This document shows, piece after piece, positions 52,661 through 63,942 of a DNA stretch of 64,000 nucleotides. Positions within the stretch are counted from its first letter, which is position 1; each line of letters opens with the position of its first letter. Below the pieces are notes generated by a model. The model ran no database searches. It saw only the letters and a list, made by a program, of their open reading frames with translations, and was not told the origin of the DNA. The DNA is taken from NCBI GenBank assembly GCA_905221345.1, contig CAJNCW010000002.1, positions 186,001 to 250,000 of the forward strand, given 5' to 3'. This stretch comes from a bacterium. Lineage in GTDB: Bacteria; Bacillota; Bacilli; Lactobacillales; Streptococcaceae. The position numbers were made by a program, and so were the translations under genes.

Positions 52661-54997
52661 CTATCCTCTAAAGGTCACAATGGTGGCACCACTGCCTCCA
52701 GCATTTTGTGGAGCATAGCCAAAACTCTTGACATGCTTGTTTCTTTGCAGGTATTTGGTGACGCCCTCACGGATGACGCCTGTTCCGATACCATGGATGA
52801 TGTCAACTTGCGCCATGTTATTGAGCAGGGCTTGGTCGATAAAAGCGTCCAGCTCATTCATAGCCTCTTCGTACCGTTTGCCTCGGAGATCCAGTCTCGC
52901 TTGTGGGCCACGACCAGATGCACGTTTCACAACATTGACTTGTTTTTTCTTGACTGGGGCTTCTTGTTGGGCCTGAACAAGATCAAATTCTTTCTCTTCC
53001 AAGGTCATCTTGATCAAACCGACTTGGGCTTCCCAGCGACCGTCCTTGAGCTGATTGGTCAAGGTTCCACGTTGTCCATAACTGAGAACCACGATATCAT
53101 CCCCCACCTTTGGAGCTCGTTTTTTCTTGGCCTTTTGAAGGACCTTGTTTTTAGACAAGTCCACTTTTTCAGGAGCCAGTTTTTTCAGCTCTGCCTTGGC
53201 TTCAATGATTTCGTGGGGTTTGAGTTGAGACTTACTGTGGAGGTTCTTGAGAATCTGGTCACTCTCACTTAGCGCTAGTTCCACAATCTCGGCAGCCTGT
53301 TCACGAGCCTTATTGAGCTCAGTTTCCTTTTCACGATTAAGCTCGTTATAGAGTTTTTTGAGTACCCGGTTCATCTTGAGGTTTTCTTGCTCCACCTCAC
53401 GGATATTTTCCAAGCGTTTACGACTTTCAAGCGTTTGCTCTTCCAATTGCTCAATGATACGATTGACATCATTATCTTGGTTGACCTGCTGGCTGGCATC
53501 TCCTACGATGACATCTGACAAACCCAGACGTTTGGCAATTTCAAAGGCATTGCTTCGACCAGGAACTCCCTGCATAAAGCGATAGGTTGGACGCAGGCTG
53601 GCTGTATCAAACTCCATGCTGGCATTTTGCACAAAGGCTGTCTCAATACCATAAGCCTTGAGCTCTGGATAGTGGGTCGTCGCCATAGTCTTGACCTGAC
53701 GCAGACGAAGATCCTCCAGAATAGCCATAGCAAGGGCTGCACCTTCCTGTGGATCGGTACCAGCCCCGAGCTCATCTAGCAATAAGAGCGAATGTTGGTT
53801 GACCTTGCCAAGAATATCTACGATATTGGTCATGTGGCTGGAGAAGGTAGACAAGCTTTGCTCGATAGACTGCTCATCCCCGATATCTGCGAAAATCTCT
53901 TCGAAAATACCGACACGGCTTCCTTTATCAGCTAAAACGGGCAATCCAGATTGGGCCATGAGTTGGGTCAAACCCAAGGTTTTGAGCATGATGGTCTTCC
54001 CACCAGTATTGGGACCTGTAATGACAATGGCAGTTAATTCCTTGCCAAAGTGTACATCGTTTGCAACAGCATTTTTGACCAAAGGATGGCGAACATGAAG
54101 GAGCTGAATCTCTTGATTCTCTGAAAGTTGAGGAACGACTGCTTGTCTTTCTTGGATGAAACGCACTTTGGCACGAATCAAGTCTAAATGGCCGATAATC
54201 CAAGCGTCATTGGCAATCTCAGCAGCATGAGGGCGGACGCATTCTGAGAGCTCCTGCAGGATACGAATCATCTCATAGCGTTCGTCTGCTCGCAGACTAG
54301 CGATTTCTTCGCTCAGTTTCACAACCTCACGTGGCTCGATATAAACCGTATTCCCACTAGCAGAGATGTCATGGACAACACCTGCAATCTTATTGCGATA
54401 GGTGTTCTTGACTGGTAAGACTTGACGGCCATTTCTGCTAGCAATAATGCCTTCGGTCAACATCTGCGCTTTTTGTTTAAGTAAGTCTTGCAAGACATCT
54501 CGAACTTGACTCTCGCTATCATGGATTTTCCGACGGATACGTGCTAGCTCTTCGCTAGCAAAATTTTCGATAAATCCTGCATCATTTAGGGATTGAAGAC
54601 TCCCTTGCAAGTGTGGAAAATCATGTAGTTTTTCAAACCATCTCGCCAACTGCTCCAAGCGTACGTTTTCAAGATTGGCATAAAAATTTTGTAACTCTCT
54701 GCTAGCAAGTAAGACCCGTTTGAGGAGTAGGAACTCCTCAATACTGAGGTCCGCCCCCATCTCCAGACGCTTGCAGACAGCTGAAATCTCACGTGTCGCT
54801 AGGATGGTAAAGTGAGGTTGCTCCACAAAAAGCGCCTGCATTTCCTCCATCTCTGTAAAGGATTGTTTGATCTTATCCACCTTGGCAGTTGGAGCCAAGA
54901 CTTTTAACTCCTCTAGGCCTTGTTCTGTCAAGAGATGAGGTTCAAACAAGGCTTTGATTTTATTAAATTCTAAGGTTTCTAGTATTTTTGTATTCAT
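52661..54997 (-). CDS. mutS2: MutS2 ATPase/endonuclease
   Basis: MutS-family protein implicated in collided-ribosome rescue and in suppressing recombination, 778 aa. The ATPase core shows [18 protein letters not shown] (Walker A) and [19 protein letters not shown] (Walker B), then [12 protein letters not shown] coiled-coil and KOW-like region leads to the C-terminal Smr domain ([11 protein letters not shown] and [14 protein letters not shown]). It lacks the MutS mismatch-recognition domain, as expected. It follows the cvpA gene by about 100 bp. Confidence 0.95.
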
Positions 54998-55070
54998 ATT
55001 TTTTCCTTGTATGCTGGTTTACAAGATTATAGTAACTAGAGGTTTTGACCTAGCCGTCCAATCTGTAAAC

Positions 55071-55099
55071 AAAGGGCTAGGAAAAATCCCGCCCTTTTT
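55071..55099 (-). terminator. Terminator between cvpA and mutS2
   Basis: Hairpin AAAGGGC-GGA/TCC-GCCCTTT (55097-55071 on the minus strand) followed by TTTGTTT-like sequence. It may be only partly effective, as mutS2 follows on the same strand. Confidence 0.65.
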
Positions 55100-55646
55100 A
55101 TCCGATTAAATTTGTCACCCAGAGTTGTTTGATAAGGTTTGTCGTAAAAGGGATACTTTGGATGATGTGTTTAGCTACGATACTTTTTTCAAGTGAATTT
55201 TGAACGGCTGCCATAGATACAGTTGCAAGAATGGTCAAAGCCATTTGCAAGACAAATAAGGTTACCAATAGAGACAAAGCCCCCGCACTAACTCGGAACC
55301 ACTTACCACCTAGTGTTTTAACTGGAATCAAATGTAGAAACAAACCGATAAAACGTCCGATAGTGTAGCAAATTCCGAAAACTAGGAGGTAGGCCAGACC
55401 CGCATAAAAGACTTTATCTAGTTGAAAAAGCTGGTCTGAAGGGAAGAAAAAGGTTCCCTGCCCTTCCTGAGGATTAGCATAAGGGACAAGCAAGTGAAAT
55501 TGATCTCCCAGCGATTTATAAAACTGCCCAGCAACAAAGGCTGAAATCACTGCCACGAGGAAATAATAAACTTGTAGCACCAAACCTCTACGGTAGCCGA
55601 TGTAAAAACCCCAAGCTAGAACCAGTAAGAGAAGGATCGAAATCAT
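55098..55646 (-). CDS. CvpA-family membrane protein
   Basis: A 182-aa protein with four or five membrane helices, matching the CvpA family by its start LLLVLAWGFYIGYRRGLVLQ and the GRFIG region. E. coli CvpA is linked to colicin V and envelope stress; here the role is unknown. The conserved zapA-cvpA-mutS2 order suggests an envelope or division link. Its start overlaps the preceding zapA end by four bases. Confidence 0.85.
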   Translation of the reverse strand: MISILLLLVLAWGFYIGYRRGLVLQVYYFLVAVISAFVAGQFYKSLGDQFHLLVPYANPQEGQGTFFFPSDQLFQLDKVFYAGLAYLLVFGICYTIGRFIGLFLHLIPVKTLGGKWFRVSAGALSLLVTLFVLQMALTILATVSMAAVQNSLEKSIVAKHIIQSIPFTTNLIKQLWVTNLIG

Positions 55647-55945
55647 AGGGAATCCTCAATCTTGCTCTGCTCTTGCTTGACAGCCACTAACTTATTTCGA
55701 AGGTCTTTAAGCTCCTGCTCCTTATCGTCAAACTCAATCTCGCGACTGAGCTGCGTCGATAGGCTGTTAATCGCTAAAAGGAGGGCAATGGTTTCATCAT
55801 CCGCTCCAGGCATTTGTTCCTTAATTGCTTGGTATTTTTCAGTCGCAACCTTGGCAATTTCCTCCATAAAGAGGTTGTCATGCTCGGTTGTCAAGGTTAA
55901 TGTCTTTTTCCCGAATGTAAACTTATATCGATTTAGATTTGCCAT
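55643..55945 (-). CDS. zapA: Cell division protein ZapA-like
   Basis: FtsZ-ring-associated protein, 100 aa from the ATG at 55945 (MANLNRYKFTFGKKTLTL). A GTG three codons earlier lies inside the ribosome binding site GAGGTG and is rejected. The N-terminal beta segment is followed by a long C-terminal coiled coil (about residues 55-100), the ZapA layout. It overlaps cvpA by four bases, and its promoter faces that of rnhC. Confidence 0.82.
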   Translation of the reverse strand: MANLNRYKFTFGKKTLTLTTEHDNLFMEEIAKVATEKYQAIKEQMPGADDETIALLLAINSLSTQLSREIEFDDKEQELKDLRNKLVAVKQEQSKIEDSL

Positions 55946-55962
55946 AAAATTCACCTCACGAT

Positions 55963-55991
55963 ATTATACCAAATTTCGCTAATTTTGTCAG
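55963..55991 (-). promoter_or_regulatory. zapA-cvpA-mutS2 promoter
   Basis: Minus-strand -35 CTGACA (55991-55986), 17-bp spacer, consensus -10 TATAAT (55968-55963). The transcription start would be about 10 bases upstream of the GTG/ATG region, giving a short leader. Confidence 0.8.
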
Positions 55992-56015
55992 TTTTTACCA
56001 ATTCTCCTGCTTTTG

Positions 56016-56024
56016 TGGTACAAT
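56016..56024 (+). promoter_or_regulatory. rnhC promoter, nearly leaderless
   Basis: Extended -10 TGGTACAAT (56016-56024) with weak -35 TTACCA (55995-56000, 18-bp spacer). The ATG begins at 56032, only seven bases after the -10, and no ribosome binding site is visible. Confidence 0.6.
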
Positions 56025-56031
56025 AGAGACT

Positions 56032-56913
56032 ATGGCAAGTATCACACTCACACCAAGTGAACAGGAAATTCAGAGCTTTTTAAGTCAGTATCAGAAGGCT
56101 CTCAGTCCTAGTAAAAATCCTTATATTCGCTATTTTTTGCGACTGACTCAGGCAACCGTTTCTATCTACACTTCTGGAAAAGTCCTCCTGCAGGGCGAAA
56201 TGGCTGAGCAATACGCCAGTTTCTTTAGTTACCAAGTTCAACAAGAAAACAGTGGACAAGATTTTCCTATGATTGGGACTGATGAGGTGGGAAATGGTTC
56301 CTACTTTGGTGGGCTAGCTGTCGTGGCCTCCTTCGTGACACCTGACCAGCATGACTTCTTGCGAAAACTCGGTGTGGGGGATTCAAAGACCCTGACAGAT
56401 CAAAAGATTCGTCAGATTGCCCCTATCCTCAAGGAAAAAATCCAGCACCAAGCGCTCCTCCTTTCACCGAGCAAGTACAACGAAGTTATCGGAGAGCGTT
56501 ACAATGCTGTTTCTGTAAAAGTTGCCCTTCACAATCAGGCTATCTTTCTCCTTCTCCAAAAAGGAGTCCAGCCAGAAAAAATCGTCATTGATGCTTTTAC
56601 AAATCCTAAAAACTATGACAAGTACTTGGCGCAAGAAGCCAACCGTTTTCCAAACAAGGTTAGTTTGGAAGAAAAAGCCGAGGGGAAATATCTGGCTGTT
56701 GCTGTTAGTTCCATCATCGCGCGGGATCTCTTCCTCGAAAGCTTGGAAAATCTTGGACGAGAACTAGGCTATCAACTGCCAAGTGGCGCTGGAACTGCAT
56801 CTGATAAGGTTGCTAGCAAAATCCTTCAAGCCTATGGCATGAAAGGGCTCAACTTCTGTGCCAAGCTTCATTTTAAAAATACTGAAAAAGCCAAAGCACT
56901 TCTGGAAAGGTAA
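56032..56913 (+). CDS. rnhC: Ribonuclease HIII
   Basis: Degrades RNA in RNA-DNA hybrids, 293 aa. The N-terminal substrate-binding TBP-like domain (about 1-75) distinguishes RNase HIII from HII. The catalytic domain begins [16 protein letters not shown] with Asp84-Glu85, followed by [12 protein letters not shown] and the ADEFTN-like VIDAFTNP, here with the third acidic Asp. The ATG is only eight bases past the -10 box, so the mRNA may be leaderless. lepB follows after three bases. Confidence 0.94.
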
Positions 56914-56916
56914 ATT

Positions 56917-57531
56917 ATGAATTATTTTAAAACATTTCTAAAAGAGTGGGGACTCACATTCCTCATCATTATACTAGTCGGTCTCAGTCGTCTCTTTCTA
57001 TGGACCAATGTCCGCGTGGAAGGACACTCTATGGATCCGACCCTAGCTGATGGAGAGATTCTCTTTGTCGTCAAACACCTCCCTATTAACCGCTTTGACA
57101 TTGTAGTTGCCCATGAAGATGATGGAAATAAAGACATCGTTAAACGCGTCATCGGCATGCCTGGTGATACTATTCGCTACGAAAACGACAAGCTCTTTAT
57201 CAACAATCAAGAAACTGACGAACCTTACCTAGCAGACTACCTCCAACAGTTTAAAAACGATAAACTACAAAGCGCCTATTCAGGGAAAGGCTTTGAAGGG
57301 GATAAGGGGGTCTATTTTAGAAGTCTAGCCCAGAAAGCTCAGGCCTTTACTGTCGATGTGAATTTCAACACCAGCTTCAGCTTTACCGTACCCGAGGGTG
57401 AGTACCTCCTCCTTGGAGATGACCGTTTGGTTTCTAGCGACAGTCGCCATGTTGGAACCTTTAAAGCCAGTCAAATCAAAGGAGAAGCCAAATTCCGTTT
57501 CTGGCCACTCAACCGTATCGGAATCTTTTAA
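56917..57531 (+). CDS. lepB: Signal peptidase I
   Basis: Membrane-anchored serine protease removing signal peptides from exported proteins, 204 aa. One N-terminal transmembrane helix (about 12-30) precedes VEGHSMDPTL with nucleophile Ser38 and KRVIGMPGD with general base Lys76; both positions match the pneumococcal enzyme as I recall. The LLGDDRLVSSDSRHVGTF box is also present. It is co-transcribed with rnhC. Confidence 0.96.
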   Translation: MNYFKTFLKEWGLTFLIIILVGLSRLFLWTNVRVEGHSMDPTLADGEILFVVKHLPINRFDIVVAHEDDGNKDIVKRVIGMPGDTIRYENDKLFINNQETDEPYLADYLQQFKNDKLQSAYSGKGFEGDKGVYFRSLAQKAQAFTVDVNFNTSFSFTVPEGEYLLLGDDRLVSSDSRHVGTFKASQIKGEAKFRFWPLNRIGIF

Positions 57532-57563
57532 AACCAGCAACCAGATGCTGTGATAGTCTTTTT

Positions 57564-57645
57564 GAGTTAGCTTTTAGGATTAGATTGCAACTTGGCAACA
57601 TCTTGTACCAAGTCCCAAATCCAAGAAAAACCTAACTGAAAGCTC
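57564..57645. repeat. Palindromic spacer element upstream of recD2
   Basis: In the 148 bp between lepB and recD2, outer arms GAGTTAGCTTTTAGG (57564-57578) and CCTAACTGAAAGCTC (57631-57645) are imperfectly complementary. They enclose CTTGGCAACATCTTGTACCAAG (a hairpin, 57591-57612, shown here as two arms with a spacer). The inner hairpin resembles the third hairpin of the element at 21500-21635. Confidence 0.4.
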
Positions 57646-57679
57646 TATCCCAGCTCTTTTTCTATCAAAAAGGAAACCT

Positions 57680-60046
57680 ATGGAAGTTTATTTTTCAGGC
57701 ACTATTGAACGCATTATTTTTGAAAATCCCAGTAATTTTTATCGCATCCTCCTCCTAGATATCGAAGATACCAATGCTGAGGACTTTGACGATTTTGAAA
57801 TCATCGTTACAGGAACTATGGCTGACGTGATTGAGGGCGAAGACTACACTTTTTGGGGACAAATCGTTCAGCACTCCAAGTATGGGGAACAGCTTCAGAT
57901 CAGCCGTTATGAGCGAGCAAAACCGACTCGAAAAGGGCTAGTTAAGTACTTTTCCAGTAGCCATTTCAAAGGAATCGGGCTCAAAACTGCTCAAAAAATC
58001 GTTGATAGCTATGGTGAAAATACCATAGACGAAATTCTGGAGCATCCTGAAAAGCTGGAAAACATTGCAGGACTCTCTGCCAAAAACCGTGAGGCTTTTG
58101 TTTCCACCCTCCGTCTTAACTATGGGACAGAGATGGTCTTGGCAAAACTTGCCAACTACGGCATTCCCAATAAACTAGCCTTTCAGATTCAAGACTTTTA
58201 CAAGGAAGAAACTCTCGATATTGTCGAAAATTATCCCTACCAGCTGGTCGAGGATATCAAAGGATTGGGTTTTACCATTGCAGACCAACTAGCGGAGGAA
58301 CTAGGCATCGAAAGTCAGGCTCCCGAGCGCTTTCGTGCTGGCCTTGTCCACAGTCTCTTTCAAGGCTGTATGGATACGGGCGATACCTACATGGAAGCCC
58401 GAGATTTGCTGGAACAGACCCTGACTCTCCTCGAGTCTTCCCGACCCGTGGAACTCGATCCCAGTCAAGTTGCTCAGGAATTATCTCATCTGATCGAAGA
58501 AGACAAGGTTCAGCAGATTGATACCAAAATCTTTGATAACAGCCTCTTTTTCGCCGAAGAAGGCATTCGCAGTCACTTGGTTCGTATCCTTGAAAAAGGA
58601 AAACAGAAAAATCAGGATTTAGAAACCATTCAAAATCATATCGCTACTGTCGAGGAGGAACTGGGTATTGAGTATGATAGCATCCAAAAACAGGCTATCT
58701 GTGACGCTATCCAGAACAAGGTCTTTATCCTAACAGGTGGACCTGGTACTGGTAAAACGACTGTTATCAATGGGATTATCGCTGTCTATGCACTTTTAGA
58801 AGGACTTGACCTCAGAAAAAAAAGCAACCTGCCTATCCTTCTAGCAGCTCCAACTGGTCGAGCGGCTCGACGCATGAATGAATTGACAGGTTTGCCTAGC
58901 GCGACTATTCACCGCCATTTGGGAATGACGGGTGACGATGACACCAGCCATCTAGAAGATTATCTGGATGCCGACTTTATCATCGTGGATGAATTTTCCA
59001 TGGTGGATACTTGGCTAGCCAACCAACTCTTCTCCAATATCTCCTCTAACAGTAAAATCCTCATCGTGGGTGATAGCGACCAGCTACCTTCTGTTAGTCC
59101 TGGACAAGTCCTGGCTGACCTGCTCCAGATACCCCTGATTCCGCAGACGCGCTTGGAACGGATTTACCGTCAGAGTGAAGAATCAACTATCGTCACCTTG
59201 GCTAGCCAGATTCGACAGGGAATCTTGCCAGCTGACTTTACCCAGAAAAAGGCCGATCGCTCCTACTTTGAAATCATGAGTAGCCATATCCCAGCTACGA
59301 TTGAGAAAATTCTTGGCGCTGCCCTCAGAAGTGGCATTCCAGCTCGCGATATTCAGGTGCTAGCACCCATGTATCGAGGAACTGCTGGTATTGATGCCAT
59401 CAACCAACTCATGCAAGACCTCCTTAATCCACCACAAAAAGACCAACTCAGTTTTGAAGCTCCCCAATGCCACTATCGAACAGGGGACAAGGTCATTCAC
59501 CTAGTCAACGACGCTGAAGTCAATGTCTTTAATGGAGACCTAGGCTACATCACAGACCTGATTCCTGGAAAATACACCGAGTCCAAACAAGACGAGATTG
59601 TCATTGATTTTGATGGCAATGAAGTCGTCTACCCACGTAACGAATGGTACAAGATTCGACTGGCCTATGCCATGAGTATTCATAAGTCTCAGGGAAGTGA
59701 GTTCCCCGTTGTTATCCTGCCCATCACCAGTGCTAGCAAGCGCATGCTGGAACGCAATCTCATCTATACAGCCATTACACGGGCCAAAAGCAAGCTCATC
59801 CTTCTTGGCGAATTACAGGCCTTTGACTATGCTGTCAAACATATCGGAACTGCCCGTAAGACCTATCTGATTGAACGCTTTCAGGATCTGGTCGATTCAG
59901 CTGACCAAACCAGCCCAGTCCCTACCGAAACGACAAATCAAGAGGATTCTCCTCTATCCTATATCCTCACCGAGGAAAACTGGTCTAGTATTCCCACTAT
60001 GATTGGGATTACAGACGCAGACCTTAAAGAGATTTTTGGAAAATAG
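57680..60046 (+). CDS. recD2: RecD2-type ATP-dependent DNA helicase
   Basis: 5'-3' superfamily 1B helicase that works without RecBC, 788 aa. The N-terminal OB-like and helix-hairpin-helix region (KTAQKIVDSYGENTID and later) marks RecD2. Walker A is LTGGPGTGKTTVINGI, Walker B FIIVDEFSMVDTWL, and later motifs are GDSDQLPSVSPGQ and YAMSIHKSQGSEFPVV. It lies 148 bp after lepB with AAAAGGAAACCT before the ATG. Its former terminator seems to be split by the following island. Confidence 0.95.
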   Translation: MEVYFSGTIERIIFENPSNFYRILLLDIEDTNAEDFDDFEIIVTGTMADVIEGEDYTFWGQIVQHSKYGEQLQISRYERAKPTRKGLVKYFSSSHFKGIGLKTAQKIVDSYGENTIDEILEHPEKLENIAGLSAKNREAFVSTLRLNYGTEMVLAKLANYGIPNKLAFQIQDFYKEETLDIVENYPYQLVEDIKGLGFTIADQLAEELGIESQAPERFRAGLVHSLFQGCMDTGDTYMEARDLLEQTLTLLESSRPVELDPSQVAQELSHLIEEDKVQQIDTKIFDNSLFFAEEGIRSHLVRILEKGKQKNQDLETIQNHIATVEEELGIEYDSIQKQAICDAIQNKVFILTGGPGTGKTTVINGIIAVYALLEGLDLRKKSNLPILLAAPTGRAARRMNELTGLPSATIHRHLGMTGDDDTSHLEDYLDADFIIVDEFSMVDTWLANQLFSNISSNSKILIVGDSDQLPSVSPGQVLADLLQIPLIPQTRLERIYRQSEESTIVTLASQIRQGILPADFTQKKADRSYFEIMSSHIPATIEKILGAALRSGIPARDIQVLAPMYRGTAGIDAINQLMQDLLNPPQKDQLSFEAPQCHYRTGDKVIHLVNDAEVNVFNGDLGYITDLIPGKYTESKQDEIVIDFDGNEVVYPRNEWYKIRLAYAMSIHKSQGSEFPVVILPITSASKRMLERNLIYTAITRAKSKLILLGELQAFDYAVKHIGTARKTYLIERFQDLVDSADQTSPVPTETTNQEDSPLSYILTEENWSSIPTMIGITDADLKEIFGK

Positions 60047-60054
60047 AGTATCAG

Positions 60055-60065
60055 AAAACCCACCT
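60055..60065 (+). terminator. Left half of a split recD2/tig terminator
   Basis: AAAACCCACCT lies nine bases after the recD2 stop. It pairs with AGGTGGGCTTTT at 63931-63942 (CCCACCT/AGGTGGG), 3.9 kb away, just before the tig end. The two look like arms of one bidirectional terminator interrupted by the mobile island. Confidence 0.65.
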
Positions 60066-60066
60066 A

Positions 60067-60404
60067 GGTACTGCACCCCCATACTGGAACAAGAGAAAAC
60101 CCCTCTTATTCGACCAGTTTTATGTACTATACAGGAGACTGGTCATTTAATTTCTGTTGAATTCTAGTTTCATTATAAAATATGATGTAATTTTTGACAA
60201 TATCTGTTATACTATCTTTTGTTAAGTTTCTCCACTTATGGGGATAGAAGGTTTCAGACTTGAGAACAGAATGAAACCATTCGATACAGGCTAACTTAGT
60301 TTCTACTGAATATGCTTTTTTGATCATAACAAAACACTCCTGTTTCTAGTTTACCAGATTTCAACAGGAGTGTTTTCTTGCGTCTCATTTTATTGGTGCA
60401 GTTC
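60067..60404 (-). mobile_element. Internally deleted IS3-family element (MITE-like), copy A
   Basis: About 338 bp with terminal inverted repeats GGTACTGCACCCCCATACTG (60067 onward) and AACTGCACCAATAAAATGAG (minus strand from 60403). Both ends match the 1-kb copy at 62907-63927, but the middle is gone. The deletion joint is a 12-bp sequence TTCGATACAGGC (60280-60291) that occurs twice in the longer copy. Confidence 0.75.
60127..60327 (-). pseudogene. Fused transposase remnant (orfA start joined to orfB end)
   Basis: A 66-aa reading frame. Residues 1-15 (MIKKAYSVETKLACI) match the start of OrfA of the longer IS copy, whose protein reads MVKKAYSVGTKLACI. Residues from 16 on (EWFHSVLKSETFY..., ...NYIIFYNETRIQQKLND) match the C-terminal end of its OrfB, including the region around the catalytic Glu. 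The join is made by loss of about 690 bp between 12-bp direct repeats. The product lacks the first two catalytic Asp residues and cannot be an active transposase. Confidence 0.75.
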
Positions 60405-60728
60405 ACAGAGGAGCATTACGAAAATACAATTCTCCATAGCGATCAAGGATGGCAATACCAACATGATTCTTATCATCGGTTTCTAGAGAGTAAGGGAATT
60501 CAGCCATCTATGTCACGCAAGGGCAACAGCCCAGACAACGGCATGATGGAGTCCTTCTTCGGCATTTTGAAGTCGGAAATGTTTTACGGATATGAGAAGA
60601 CATTTAAATCACTTAATCAATTGGAACAAGCTATTGTGGACTACATTGATTATTACAACAACAAACGAATCAAAGCCAAACTAAAAGGACTTAGCCCTGT
60701 GCAATACAGAACTAAATCCTTTCAATAA
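60405..60728 (+). pseudogene. IS3-family transposase OrfB, C-terminal fragment
   Basis: The last ~107 residues of an OrfB integrase-type transposase: the second catalytic Asp in TILHSDQGWQYQH, the catalytic Glu in NSPDNGMMESFFGILKSE, and the terminal YNNKRIKAKLKGLSPVQYR. The N-terminal two-thirds, including the first Asp, is missing. The open frame extends back to a TTG at 60378 only because it runs by chance into copy A. Not functional. Confidence 0.8.
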
Positions 60729-60758
60729 TTATTTGTCCAACTTTTGGGGATCAGTACA
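60405..60758 (+). mobile_element. 3' fragment of a second IS3-family (IS861-like) element
   Basis: The right end of a different IS3-family element, truncated on its left where copy A ends. It stops at an inverted-repeat end TGTACTGATCCCCAAAAGTT (minus strand from 60758), typical of the IS861/IS150 group. No left end is present. Confidence 0.7.
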
Positions 60759-60868
60759 CAATTCTGATGGTTTTTTATTAATTTTTATTCTTCTATTATT
60801 TGATGCTTCGTTTTTATTTTCTAGGGATATTACTTTAAACTACTTCTCTTACTGCCTTGAATTTAAAT

Positions 60869-61426
60869 TTATTTCTTATATTCATCTTTTAATAAGTCAT
60901 AAAGTGTTCGGTATTTATTTGGGATTTTTGATTTTTTAATACTATGCACTATCTTTATAGCATCTAGAAGTTTATCAACATCAGAAAAGTATTCTTTTAC
61001 AAAGTCATATGACTTCACGTTGCTAAGTTTTAATTTTTGCTTACAATAATCACTAGGCTTAGCAAGGCCTGATCTATTAAAATCTTCATTTTTTTCTTCA
61101 CTAACAATTATTAATAACTCGATTTCAGGAGGTGTAATTACATTTATAACTTCAATCTTTTCTTCAAAAATTTTTCTATACTTAGCACTTCTAAAATTAA
61201 AATTTTCTCTTTTTGAATCTAATATCCTGAACAAGGCAATCTTAGAACCATAATCTTTACCCATGTATTTATCACAAAATTCCTTTGCACCTCGAGTTTT
61301 TATTGGACCATTATTAATCAGGTAATCATCATTTTCAATAAAGATACAATGATTCTCTAATAATATTTCAATAATTGCCTCTTCAGCAGCCCCTTCACAA
61401 ATAATCGCACTATATTTTTTTGGCAT
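60869..61426 (-). CDS. 185-aa protein with RloB/TOPRIM-like features, partner of the AAA ATPase
   Basis: I cannot name this gene with certainty. Residues 6-20 (SAIICEGAAEEAIIE) give a beta-strand followed by Glu11-Gly12 and further acids, as at the start of RloB- and TOPRIM-type nucleases. FRILDSKRE carries Asp70, though without the second Asp of a DxD motif. PPEIELLIIVSEEKNE recalls the PxFExWLLLH block of RloB. The C-terminal third is Lys-rich. It begins 9 bp after the ATPase stop, so the two are co-translated. Such ATPase-plus-nuclease pairs are often anti-phage systems (OLD, PARIS, RloAB); that role is inference. An unrelated function is possible. Confidence 0.7.
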   Translation of the reverse strand: MPKKYSAIICEGAAEEAIIEILLENHCIFIENDDYLINNGPIKTRGAKEFCDKYMGKDYGSKIALFRILDSKRENFNFRSAKYRKIFEEKIEVINVITPPEIELLIIVSEEKNEDFNRSGLAKPSDYCKQKLKLSNVKSYDFVKEYFSDVDKLLDAIKIVHSIKKSKIPNKYRTLYDLLKDEYKK

Positions 61427-61435
61427 ATTTAAGAC

Positions 61436-62662
61436 CTACTTTTTTAAGAATCTTTCTTTAATAATATTTCTTAATGAATTTTCCGATGAATACTTTGGAG
61501 TAGAATTATCAATTATCCCTTTAATAAAGATATCACCTATACTTATATCATTTCTTTTAATAATGTTTGAAAATTTTTCAATGTCAATTTGTCTCTTTTT
61601 TCTTACAATATAGATTGAATCATTTCTGGGAATTATATCTAATAGTTCCGAATAATGAGTAGAATAAATCAGAACAGCTCCATTTGGATTCATTTTTCTA
61701 TCCAAAAAAAGATTAATGAAAGTAGAAACAATTTCTCTATTAAAATGATTTTCTAATTCATCAACGATTATCACTCCACCTGAACGTAACGTGAAGAACG
61801 CATCCATAAATAATCCAAGTCCTTTAACTGTACCTGATGATAAAATACCATGTAACTCGGATATAGAGTCAAGCTCAATTGAATTAACTTGATCTTTAAA
61901 CTTAAGTTTAACTCTTACAGTCTTATTTTCTTCATTTTTTAAGAATTTTAATTCCTCAATACTTGGATCCAAATAGGTAATTAATTCATGTGGAATATTA
62001 CCAAAACCGCTCAGAAGATTAAAATTTGTATAACTTAGTGTATCTCTATAATATAATTTCTCAATCTTTTTTAAATTAAAGAGAATATTTATTATGCTAA
62101 CATCAGAACTTAACCCTAAATGTGTTTTATCACCATTATTCCTTGTCATTATATGATCTTCCTTTATGGAAGTGAAATCAAATATTTCTTTTTTTGAGCG
62201 TACTGGTTTTGCCTTCTTTGCTGAGAAGGTTTCATCAACAAAAAAGTATTTATATTCCCCCTCATCCTCATCGTATCTTCTAGAAATGACTGATTCTAAC
62301 TTATTAATTGTTTGTTTCCCATTAGTTTCATCATAAAAGAATATAGTATATTTTACTTGTTTATTAATATCTAGATGTAAAACATTACTAGCGTCAGAAC
62401 TTTGCAAGATTACTCTTGGACTGTAGTTTATAGATTTAGCTTGGATAATATTTAACGCAACTATTATTGCATTTAATATTTGAGTTTTACCAGAAGCATT
62501 TAATCCAGTAAAAGTAAGAGTTCTATTAGCATAGAAATTATTAAATAGATGGATCAGTTCGTGTTTCTCATCTGAGCTAACTCGTGCTTCGGAGAAAAAG
62601 TCTATTTCAATTTTTTTATCAAATAAAGCGACGTCTTCAATTATTATTTTCAATAATTTCAT
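61436..62662 (-). CDS. AAA15/OLD-like ATPase (ABC-type ATPase fold)
   Basis: A 408-aa ATPase. Walker A GLNASGKT lies at residues 53-60, an ABC-like signature LSSGT at 274-278, Walker B VIIVDE at 297-302 (Asp301, Glu302) and the switch His336 in STHYS. The long insert between residues 70 and 270 would form the arm or dimer domain of SMC/Rad50-like and AAA15 proteins. There is no C-terminal TOPRIM domain here, unlike single-chain OLD; that function may be supplied by the next gene. Start: ATG after AGGAG with seven-base spacing, behind a TTGTTT-17-TAAAAT promoter. Codon use is AT-rich compared with the core genes. Confidence 0.8.
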   Translation of the reverse strand: MKLLKIIIEDVALFDKKIEIDFFSEARVSSDEKHELIHLFNNFYANRTLTFTGLNASGKTQILNAIIVALNIIQAKSINYSPRVILQSSDASNVLHLDINKQVKYTIFFYDETNGKQTINKLESVISRRYDEDEGEYKYFFVDETFSAKKAKPVRSKKEIFDFTSIKEDHIMTRNNGDKTHLGLSSDVSIINILFNLKKIEKLYYRDTLSYTNFNLLSGFGNIPHELITYLDPSIEELKFLKNEENKTVRVKLKFKDQVNSIELDSISELHGILSSGTVKGLGLFMDAFFTLRSGGVIIVDELENHFNREIVSTFINLFLDRKMNPNGAVLIYSTHYSELLDIIPRNDSIYIVRKKRQIDIEKFSNIIKRNDISIGDIFIKGIIDNSTPKYSSENSLRNIIKERFLKK

Positions 62663-62691
62663 TTCATTACTCCTAATTATGTTTTATAACT

Positions 62692-62720
62692 ATTTTATAT
62701 TAATTTCATAAATTAAACAA
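62692..62720 (-). promoter_or_regulatory. Promoter of the ATPase gene pair
   Basis: Minus-strand -35 TTGTTT (62720-62715), 17-bp spacer and -10 TAAAAT (62697-62692), about 30 bases before the ATG. The region is very AT-rich, so chance matches are possible. The remaining 62721-62906 holds nothing else I recognise. Confidence 0.5.
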
Positions 62721-62906
62721 CAGATAACTACTGATTTTTGTAATTATTTGTTATATTTTGCTAGAATATATTATTGCAGAGGGAGGATTAATTCATTTTT
62801 TATATATCCTGCCAGTTCTTAACCAGTTTTATTACTAATTAAAACACTAATTTTATCCATTTTTTTAAAATATTTAAAGTAAAGTGGCATAAAAAACTAA
62901 AAGCTC

Positions 62907-63927
62907 ATGGAACTACTCCCCAATAATGAGACAAGAGAAAAAACCTCTTATGTGACCAGTTTTCTATACTCTACAGGAGACAGGTCATTTAATTTCTGTT
63001 AAATTCTAGTTTCATTATAAAATATGATGTAATTTTTGACAATATCTGTTATACTATCTTTACTTAAGTTTCTCCACAGGTTTCAGACTTGAGAACAGAA
63101 TGGAATCATTCGATACAGGCACTATCCGCTGGTGTTCCTTTTCGGGACATGGAGCGGACGATGCCTTTTTCTATACAAGCCTGATAATATGCTTTTGAGG
63201 GGTAGACAGAACTCTGGTCGCTGTGTAAAAGTATCCCCTTGAAGTAGCTCAAGTTGATTAAGTATGTTGAGCACAAAGTCCGTATCTTGGCACTAGGAGA
63301 TGATATAAGCTACAATTTCACGATTATAGAGATCCATGATCGAAGATAGATAAAGTCTACAGTTTCCAAAGCAGAGGTAGGTGATGTCTGTGACAAGCTT
63401 CTCCATAGGCTTACCTGCCTGAAAATCACGATCCAGCTTATTGTCTGTTACATGGTAAGGATTCCCTAATTTAGGTCCCTTCTTGGGACGGACACGGCAA
63501 AGGCAGCACTTTTTCTTCATAATATGATAGACCTTCTTGCGATTAACGATGAGGTTATAAACTTTCTTGAACAAGCGAGTGATGGTTCGGTAGCCGTAAA
63601 TAAAGAAATTTTCCATACAGAGTTTTTCTATTTTATCTGCTATTTCATCCCTTTACCATAAGTATATTCTTTCCCCACAGGTTAGTGGAAACGGTACAAT
63701 TCATCATTCTGATACCATCGCCACCAGTTCTTAACCTGACTAGCATTTTTGATACTAAGGGTATCCATGATAACCTTATTTGATTTACCTCCCTTCTTCA
63801 TTTCGATACAGGCTAGCTTAGTTCCTACTGAATATGCTTTTTTGACCATAACAAAACACTCCTGTTTCTAGTTTATCAGATTTCAACAGGAGTGTTTTCT
63901 TGTGTCTCATTTTATGGGTGAAGTGCC
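62907..63927 (-). mobile_element. Degenerate IS3-family element, copy B
   Basis: About 1.0 kb with ends matching copy A: GGAACTACTCCCCAATAATG at 62907 and the complement GGCACTTCACCCATAAAATG at 63927. It contains orfA and orfB remnants on the minus strand, with stops and frame changes. It carries both copies of TTCGATACAGGC (63109-63120 and 63802-63813) that explain the deletion in copy A. Confidence 0.75.
62948..63849 (-). pseudogene. Transposase orfA/orfB pseudogene of copy B
   Basis: OrfA begins at the ATG at 63849 (MVKKAYSVGTKLACIEMKKG) and reads the HTH region to a stop at 63682, only 55 residues. OrfB is open from 63616 to 63293, with the first catalytic Asp in LVTDITYLCFGN. It then breaks, and the second Asp region (HSDQS) and Glu region (SACIEWFHSVLKS) appear in other frames down to a final stop at 62948. 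An in-frame TAA interrupts the last part. All IS3-family DDE blocks can be found, but no intact protein is encoded. Confidence 0.75.
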
Positions 63928-63930
63928 AGC

Positions 63931-63942
63931 AGGTGGGCTTTT
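63931..63942 (+). terminator. Right half of the split recD2/tig terminator
   Basis: AGGTGGGCTTTT, complementary to the half at 60055-60065. With a local GCCA/TGGC pairing it may still form a weak hairpin, but the original stem is broken by the island. Confidence 0.6.

Follow-up and report, generated by a model that had tools for sequence, protein, structure and literature searches.

A mobile two-gene module combining an ABC-type ATPase with a divergent TOPRIM-like protein in a Streptococcaceae genome

A 64,000 nt stretch of a Streptococcaceae genome (assembly GCA_905221345.1, contig CAJNCW010000002.1, positions 186,001 to 250,000; hereafter 'the window') carries two adjacent genes, encoding a 408 aa ATPase and a 185 aa partner, which together constitute a conserved, mobile module. 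This is fairly likely to be a unit in which the ATPase holds a TOPRIM nuclease, of the kind that joins an ABC-type ATPase to a separate TOPRIM effector. Systems combining an ATPase with a TOPRIM domain are already known, and the pair adds a branch to a kind that includes AbiL, PARIS, OLD and Gabija; this branch and its set of conserved acids are undescribed in the literature searched. That search found no account of the small-protein/ATPase family, with preprints, supplements and most subscription papers outside its scope, so one may exist in print. The chances are about even that the pair represents an undescribed, separately evolved anti-phage system, in which a distinct ATPase clade is co-inherited with its own D-S-[R/K]-x-E TOPRIM nuclease family across several phyla, in islands bounded by insertion sequences (IS) and in viral contigs. 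An initial annotation of the window had proposed a candidate new defence system with its own promoter; the distinct, mobile ATPase and TOPRIM-like pair has stood up to analysis, and the promoter has not.

A conserved pair of adjacent genes

Both open reading frames (ORFs) are unbroken in the window and lie on the minus strand with the lengths and spacing originally annotated:

61436..62662, minus strand: ATPase gene, first of the pair; 408 aa, ABC/AAA15 (AAA_21) type
60869..61426, minus strand: small partner gene; 185 aa, probable divergent OLD-like TOPRIM domain, presumed nuclease effector
61427..61435, minus strand: intergenic gap of 9 bp, which fits a single transcript; related loci are likewise close-set

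The ATPase and the small protein are a real unit, nearly always found together. Searches with the small protein returned 99 homologues at E ≤ 1e-3 among 194 candidates, the window's own included, and the two genes are adjacent and on one strand in 85 of 90 related loci (80 kept from 212 relatives in species genomes, plus 10 viral contigs), more than chance would give; a search for the pair in other genomes had been proposed as a check. Spacing ranges from -25 to +17 nt, a count that takes the start codon nearest the ATPase stop and is therefore biased toward small gaps; some of the 85 ATPases are truncated at a contig end or disrupted, as in L037, and loci L002 and L003 resemble each other. 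Three of the five remaining loci begin at the small gene, at a contig start. In another, L044, the ATPase and TOPRIM genes are split by 1589 nt containing a 391 aa ORF (L044:8376-9551) that by eye is an IS110-like transposase. The fifth, L018, is the sole locus of the 90 with a TOPRIM-type gene (L018:3191-3721) away from the contig start and the ATPase missing; its neighbours resemble, by eye, the region of a conjugative element.

In viral contigs the partner stands beside nine of ten strong ATPase matches, L149 ending with its contig; seven of these nine are viral contigs already counted among the 90 loci. Two weak viral-contig ATPase matches, L159 and L160, are followed by other ORFs. Of 348 genomes sampled from the phylum, 3 contain the small protein, and the same 3 hold the three ATPase matches at E < 1e-40 among 249 sampled genomes. 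Both genes look broken in one of the three, G624, with a stop inside the ATPase and only part of the small gene present.

The pair is AT-rich, as had been noted, with a GC content of 26-29% against 40-49% over positions 54000 to 59999 (in segments of 500 bp). The promoter assigned to it is indistinguishable from chance, as 19 promoter-like sites were counted at the pair and 17.2 +/- 3.6 in shuffled sequences. A search of Rfam gave two matches only, both far under their gathering scores.

The small protein as a probable TOPRIM nuclease

Judging from profile comparison and conserved residues, the small protein probably belongs to the OLD-like TOPRIM nucleases as a divergent member. At the level of single models it has no match in NCBIfam or PADLOC at E ≤ 10, falls below the cut-off of the Pfam family OLD-like_TOPRIM (PF20469; E 0.11, 13.5 bits against 23.2) and reaches at best E 0.18 in PHROGs. 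Model-based defence finders would overlook the pair, or wrongly report the ATPase as AbiLi, because no curated model in these four collections names the window's small protein. A profile search recovered 459 sequences at E ≤ 0.1 among 2570 (the best 120 of the 459 being listed); among annotated records there was no phage match (E ≤ 0.01) and there were three plasmid matches (E ≤ 0.1).

Compared by hhalign with TOPRIM regions of OLD proteins, the small-protein profile scores 27.5 (E 8.5e-4), a value reached by none of 40 shuffles, and a further run gave 24.8 (0/60). In calibration RloB scored 27.8 and DUF4435 34.7 against OLD (each 0/30), hence the likeness of the small protein to OLD TOPRIM is at the level of RloB's own. 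The initial reading of the protein as RloB/TOPRIM-like is accordingly upheld for the OLD TOPRIM profile and fails for the RloB and AbiLii models: its score against RloB is not clearly above shuffles (2/60 and 1/40 as high), RloB (PF13707) matches neither the window protein at E ≤ 10 nor any of 37 family members at E ≤ 0.5, and AbiLii of PADLOC matches 0/37 at E ≤ 1. The likeness to eight DUF4435 regions is weak (16.9, 1/30 shuffles as high), and neither DUF4435 nor AriB matches the window protein or the 37 members. The only PADLOC families matched, each by a single member of the 37, were Cas4 (0.0028), a CARF model (0.0044) and HEC-01B (0.0049). DUF4276, considered as the closest kin, was dropped when 8/30 shuffles scored as high against a four-sequence profile built without L144. 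The name 'N-6 DNA methylase' borne by two homologues, H6 (NZ_CP089851.1) and P0020, is likely a misnaming, as no methylase family is matched by the window protein or the 37 members.

Conservation was first counted over 195 rows, made up of the query and 194 of 200 listed homologues 150-210 aa long (six being dropped for length), with the window protein present twice; adding ORFs from the fetched loci brought the alignment to 282 rows. E11, G12, E15 and D70 are kept in every row; at position 74 there are 277 rows with E, 4 with D and 1 with A; T98 and E101 are found in 277/277 covering rows, E103 in 278/278 and K138 in 278/281. The acid of the ICEG segment, the Asp of FRILDS and the PEIELLI block, all singled out in the initial annotation, thereby correspond to positions that are invariant or nearly so (E11, G12, D70, P100-E103). 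Its remark that the partner lacks an obvious DxD also proved apt: position 72, which would be the second Asp, is R in 219 rows, K in 49, E in 3 and D in 2, so R or K in 268/282. The family thus has D-S-[R/K]-x-E in place of the usual DxD, the acids themselves being retained. The order of these acids resembles that of E400/E404, D455 and T506/E508 in Bp OLD (PMC6755086), in favour of the TOPRIM reading.

Structural comparison is only suggestive of a TOPRIM identity. E11, D70 and T98 come directly after strands predicted by AF2 at 6-10, 63-69 and 91-97, and the AF2 model and VIA-align tentatively favour a TOPRIM fold. Of the structural check that had been called for, a Foldseek search with the small protein gave nothing at E ≤ 0.001 in PDB or BFVD; among the 50 BFVD rows listed the top probability, 0.57, belonged to an RloB-like protein at a non-significant E of 0.088. 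PDB sequence searches with the protein and with profiles returned sub-threshold or unrelated rows only. The top structural match was 2p62 (PH0156), an uncharacterised Pyrococcus horikoshii protein, which a term search did not find mentioned in two papers on OLD.

A distinct clade of ABC-type ATPases

The larger protein has an ABC-type fold and the motifs earlier ascribed to it, namely a Walker A (G53-LNASGK-T60), an LSSGT signature (274-278), a Walker B (D301-E302) and a switch His (H336); an alignment of 38 sequences, the window's among them, shows no variation at G53, G58-K59-T60, L274 to T278, D301, E302 or H336. NCBIfam has no name for the ATPase family as such: of 38 members, nine match the defence ATPase MAD3 (best 4e-6) and 13 match a model for cobalt transporters. 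Entries for retron/Septu PtuA and GajA score 14.8-16.9, a PDB sequence search with the ATPase alone gave nothing taken as real, and annotated records held no phage match and five plasmid matches.

In a tree of 37 ATPases, 21 of the pair's family lie on one side of a branch with support 100/97. Ten RloB-linked (AbiLi-type) ATPases, nine assigned by Pfam and L160 by eye, lie on one side of another (92/64); the family is also apart from two PDC-M12A and three DUF4276-linked (HEC-01A-type) ATPases. The tree has eight long branches and its root is not known; L163 (internal stop), L084 and L095 were left out.

Insertion site and distribution

The pair lies on an insertion of about 3.86 kb, flanked by IS remnants as initially described; these are of IS3 type at both ends:

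60068..63929, no strand: insertion of about 3.86 kb in which IS remnants flank the pair, ends uncertain by 1-4 bp
60067..60728, plus strand: IS3-type remnants left of the pair, repeated on the right side, with a transposase-like ORF fragment
62909..63924, minus strand: IS3-type remnants on the right, in part directly repeating the left side
60059..60067, plus strand: left half of a stem-loop behind recD2, presumed terminator, from comparison with L183-L187

Parts 60067-60291 and 60280-60402 of the left remnant recur on the right at 62909-63120 and 63802-63924 as direct repeats (85% over 225 bp, 94% over 123 bp), and the ORF fragment at 60378-60728 matches IS3 transposase regions. The genes to the left are presumably mutS2, rnhC, lepB and recD2. 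The recD2 segment is found in all 40 sampled genomes of the genus, and the insertion behind it is missing in all six relatives compared, the best of these 40 by the end of recD2. In five of them (L183-L187) window positions 60064-60067 run directly into 63930, giving a clean empty site, and in L188 about 130 bp of other sequence takes the place of the insertion. The island parts the halves of the stem-loop, 60059-60067 and 63931-63937, which is intact in L183-L187.

Within the genus the small protein occurs in 1 of 247 genomes, as a fragment with a stop, and its nearest named homologues come from S. mutans, S. suis and Streptococcus sp., which like the genes left of the pair suggests a Streptococcus chromosome. 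Further afield, relatives number at least 212 stretches in one collection of species genomes; they include many from Lachnospiraceae together with other Bacillota, Oceanivirga, Sulfurovum, Spirochaetaceae and Psychromonas, many being metagenome bins. These taxa we take to span several phyla.

Proposed mechanism and alternative explanations

The small protein may be a TOPRIM nuclease that uses two metals, with D-S-[R/K]-x-E, through E74, standing in for DxD; the conserved yet altered acids raise the testable question of what chemistry such a nuclease could rely on when that motif is missing. The ATPase would oligomerise and restrain its partner until it sensed a trigger from a phage or mobile element, whereupon the nuclease would be released or activated to cut an essential nucleic acid. 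With AriB and RNase M5 as models, the favoured target would be tRNA or other RNA, DNA being also possible, and the resulting growth arrest on infection could stop the cell before the phage cycle completes. There is precedent in PARIS, where AriA holds the tRNase AriB sequestered before infection (PMC12409363), and in AbiL and the TOPRIM_OLD toxins of C. algidicarnis and S. agalactiae that adjacent AAA proteins neutralise (PMC10440598).

Two findings weigh against a defensive ATPase-TOPRIM module. The alignment of the small protein to OLD leaves the T-x-E block (T98-E103) unaligned, which slightly lowered confidence in this explanation and slightly raised it in a non-defence or non-nuclease reading, and no enrichment of defence genes was seen around the pair, with 143 PADLOC families hit among the 142 nearest ORFs and 122 among 142 distant ORFs (drawn from 177 lying at least 6 kb off in the same loci). 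That the pair serves DNA repair or the upkeep of its element, or that its small member is not a nuclease, is nevertheless quite improbable, given that the pair is patchy, mobile and absent at the site in the six relatives, and that its ATPase scores with PtuA and GajA.

The split layout had been compared with those of OLD, PARIS and RloA-RloB; the likeness of layout holds, and membership of these systems or of AbiL does not. The pair resembles AbiL and PARIS in arrangement yet fails the definition of the partner in each. That it is simply AbiL, with AbiLi as the ATPase, a very divergent AbiLii/RloB as the small protein and the same working, is unlikely, if a little less so than a non-defence role. 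In both, a small TOPRIM-type gene comes directly after the ATPase gene, the window ATPase has AbiLi as its best PADLOC match (3.9e-29), and hhalign places three motif blocks in the same order as in RloB (ICEG with VCEG, LDS with FDKD, TPPEIELLI with SNESFELWYIL). The AbiLi model discriminates poorly, however, giving 127.7 bits to a PDC-M12A ATPase and 99.7 to that of the window; AbiLii and RloB models do not recognise the window's partner or its family, while the partner in L082, a positive control, matches AbiLii at 1.1e-29; RloB has D-x-D in 8/9 aligned rows; and the RloB-linked ATPases group elsewhere than those behind the 100/97 branch. RloA-RloB differs in the same lack of a PF13707 match. 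PARIS shares the ATPase with a separate TOPRIM effector, and its AriA model matches the window ATPase at 9e-12 (PADLOC), but its DUF4435 effector has no counterpart by model in the small protein. OLD of classes 1 and 2 and GajA have in common with the pair the ABC-type ATPase fold and an OLD-like TOPRIM profile with E-x3-E and D, whereas OLD nucleases (classes 1-3) are single chains and the system here comprises two proteins, the ATPase ORF ending at 408 aa and the TOPRIM candidate, with its DxD replaced, being only 185 aa long. The PADLOC candidate systems HEC-01 (with a DUF4276 partner) and PDC-M12 likewise combine an AAA ATPase with a small protein having, by eye, a VEG/TOPRIM-type start, but their ATPases belong to other groups in the tree.

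The role of the pair is probably anti-phage or toxin-antitoxin. A module serving chiefly to maintain its mobile element through addiction, rather than to stop phages, is the less expected of these, with a rather low chance of being correct. Residence on an insertion with IS at its ends, and presence in 10 viral contigs, would suit it, as would the lack of defence-island enrichment, and in NetFlax D29 AAA : TOPRIM_OLD pairs the AAA protein adjoins the toxin and neutralises it in E. coli, these toxin-antitoxin pairs of C. algidicarnis and S. agalactiae being likened to AbiL (PMC10440598). The same source terms D44 of C. algidicarnis RloB-homologous; S. agalactiae, the source of D60, does not appear by name among the small-protein matches listed. 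Sporadic spread and kinship to phage-defence ATPases suit defence as well, and the two roles are not mutually exclusive. A simple toxin-antitoxin model is opposed by PARIS, in which deletion of either gene is non-toxic and defence is lost (PMC9122126), and by Fusobacterium nucleatum, whose toxic AbiLii is not relieved by its AbiLi (PMC3985639).

Neighbouring genes and related pairs

Neighbours of the pair are diverse, with no recurring third gene among the nearest ORFs. An integrase-like cluster was discerned by eye in 11 loci; of the nearest ORFs two match AbiLi (best 2.5e-90), four PemK/MazF toxins and three phage integrases, with a few hits to methyltransferases and to further defence models.

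Other pairs of similar make-up were encountered in the window's genus. L082:136-2076 is an AbiL pair by PADLOC (AbiLi 1.5e-84, AbiLii 1.1e-29), and L083:1468-3414 is a similar RloB pair adjoined, by eye, by a transposase-like ORF. L085:1321-3328 combines a PDC-M12-type ATPase with a 279 aa partner bearing DxD (PADLOC, run on L085), and L086 and L087 look like it, making this another candidate of the ATPase and TOPRIM type.
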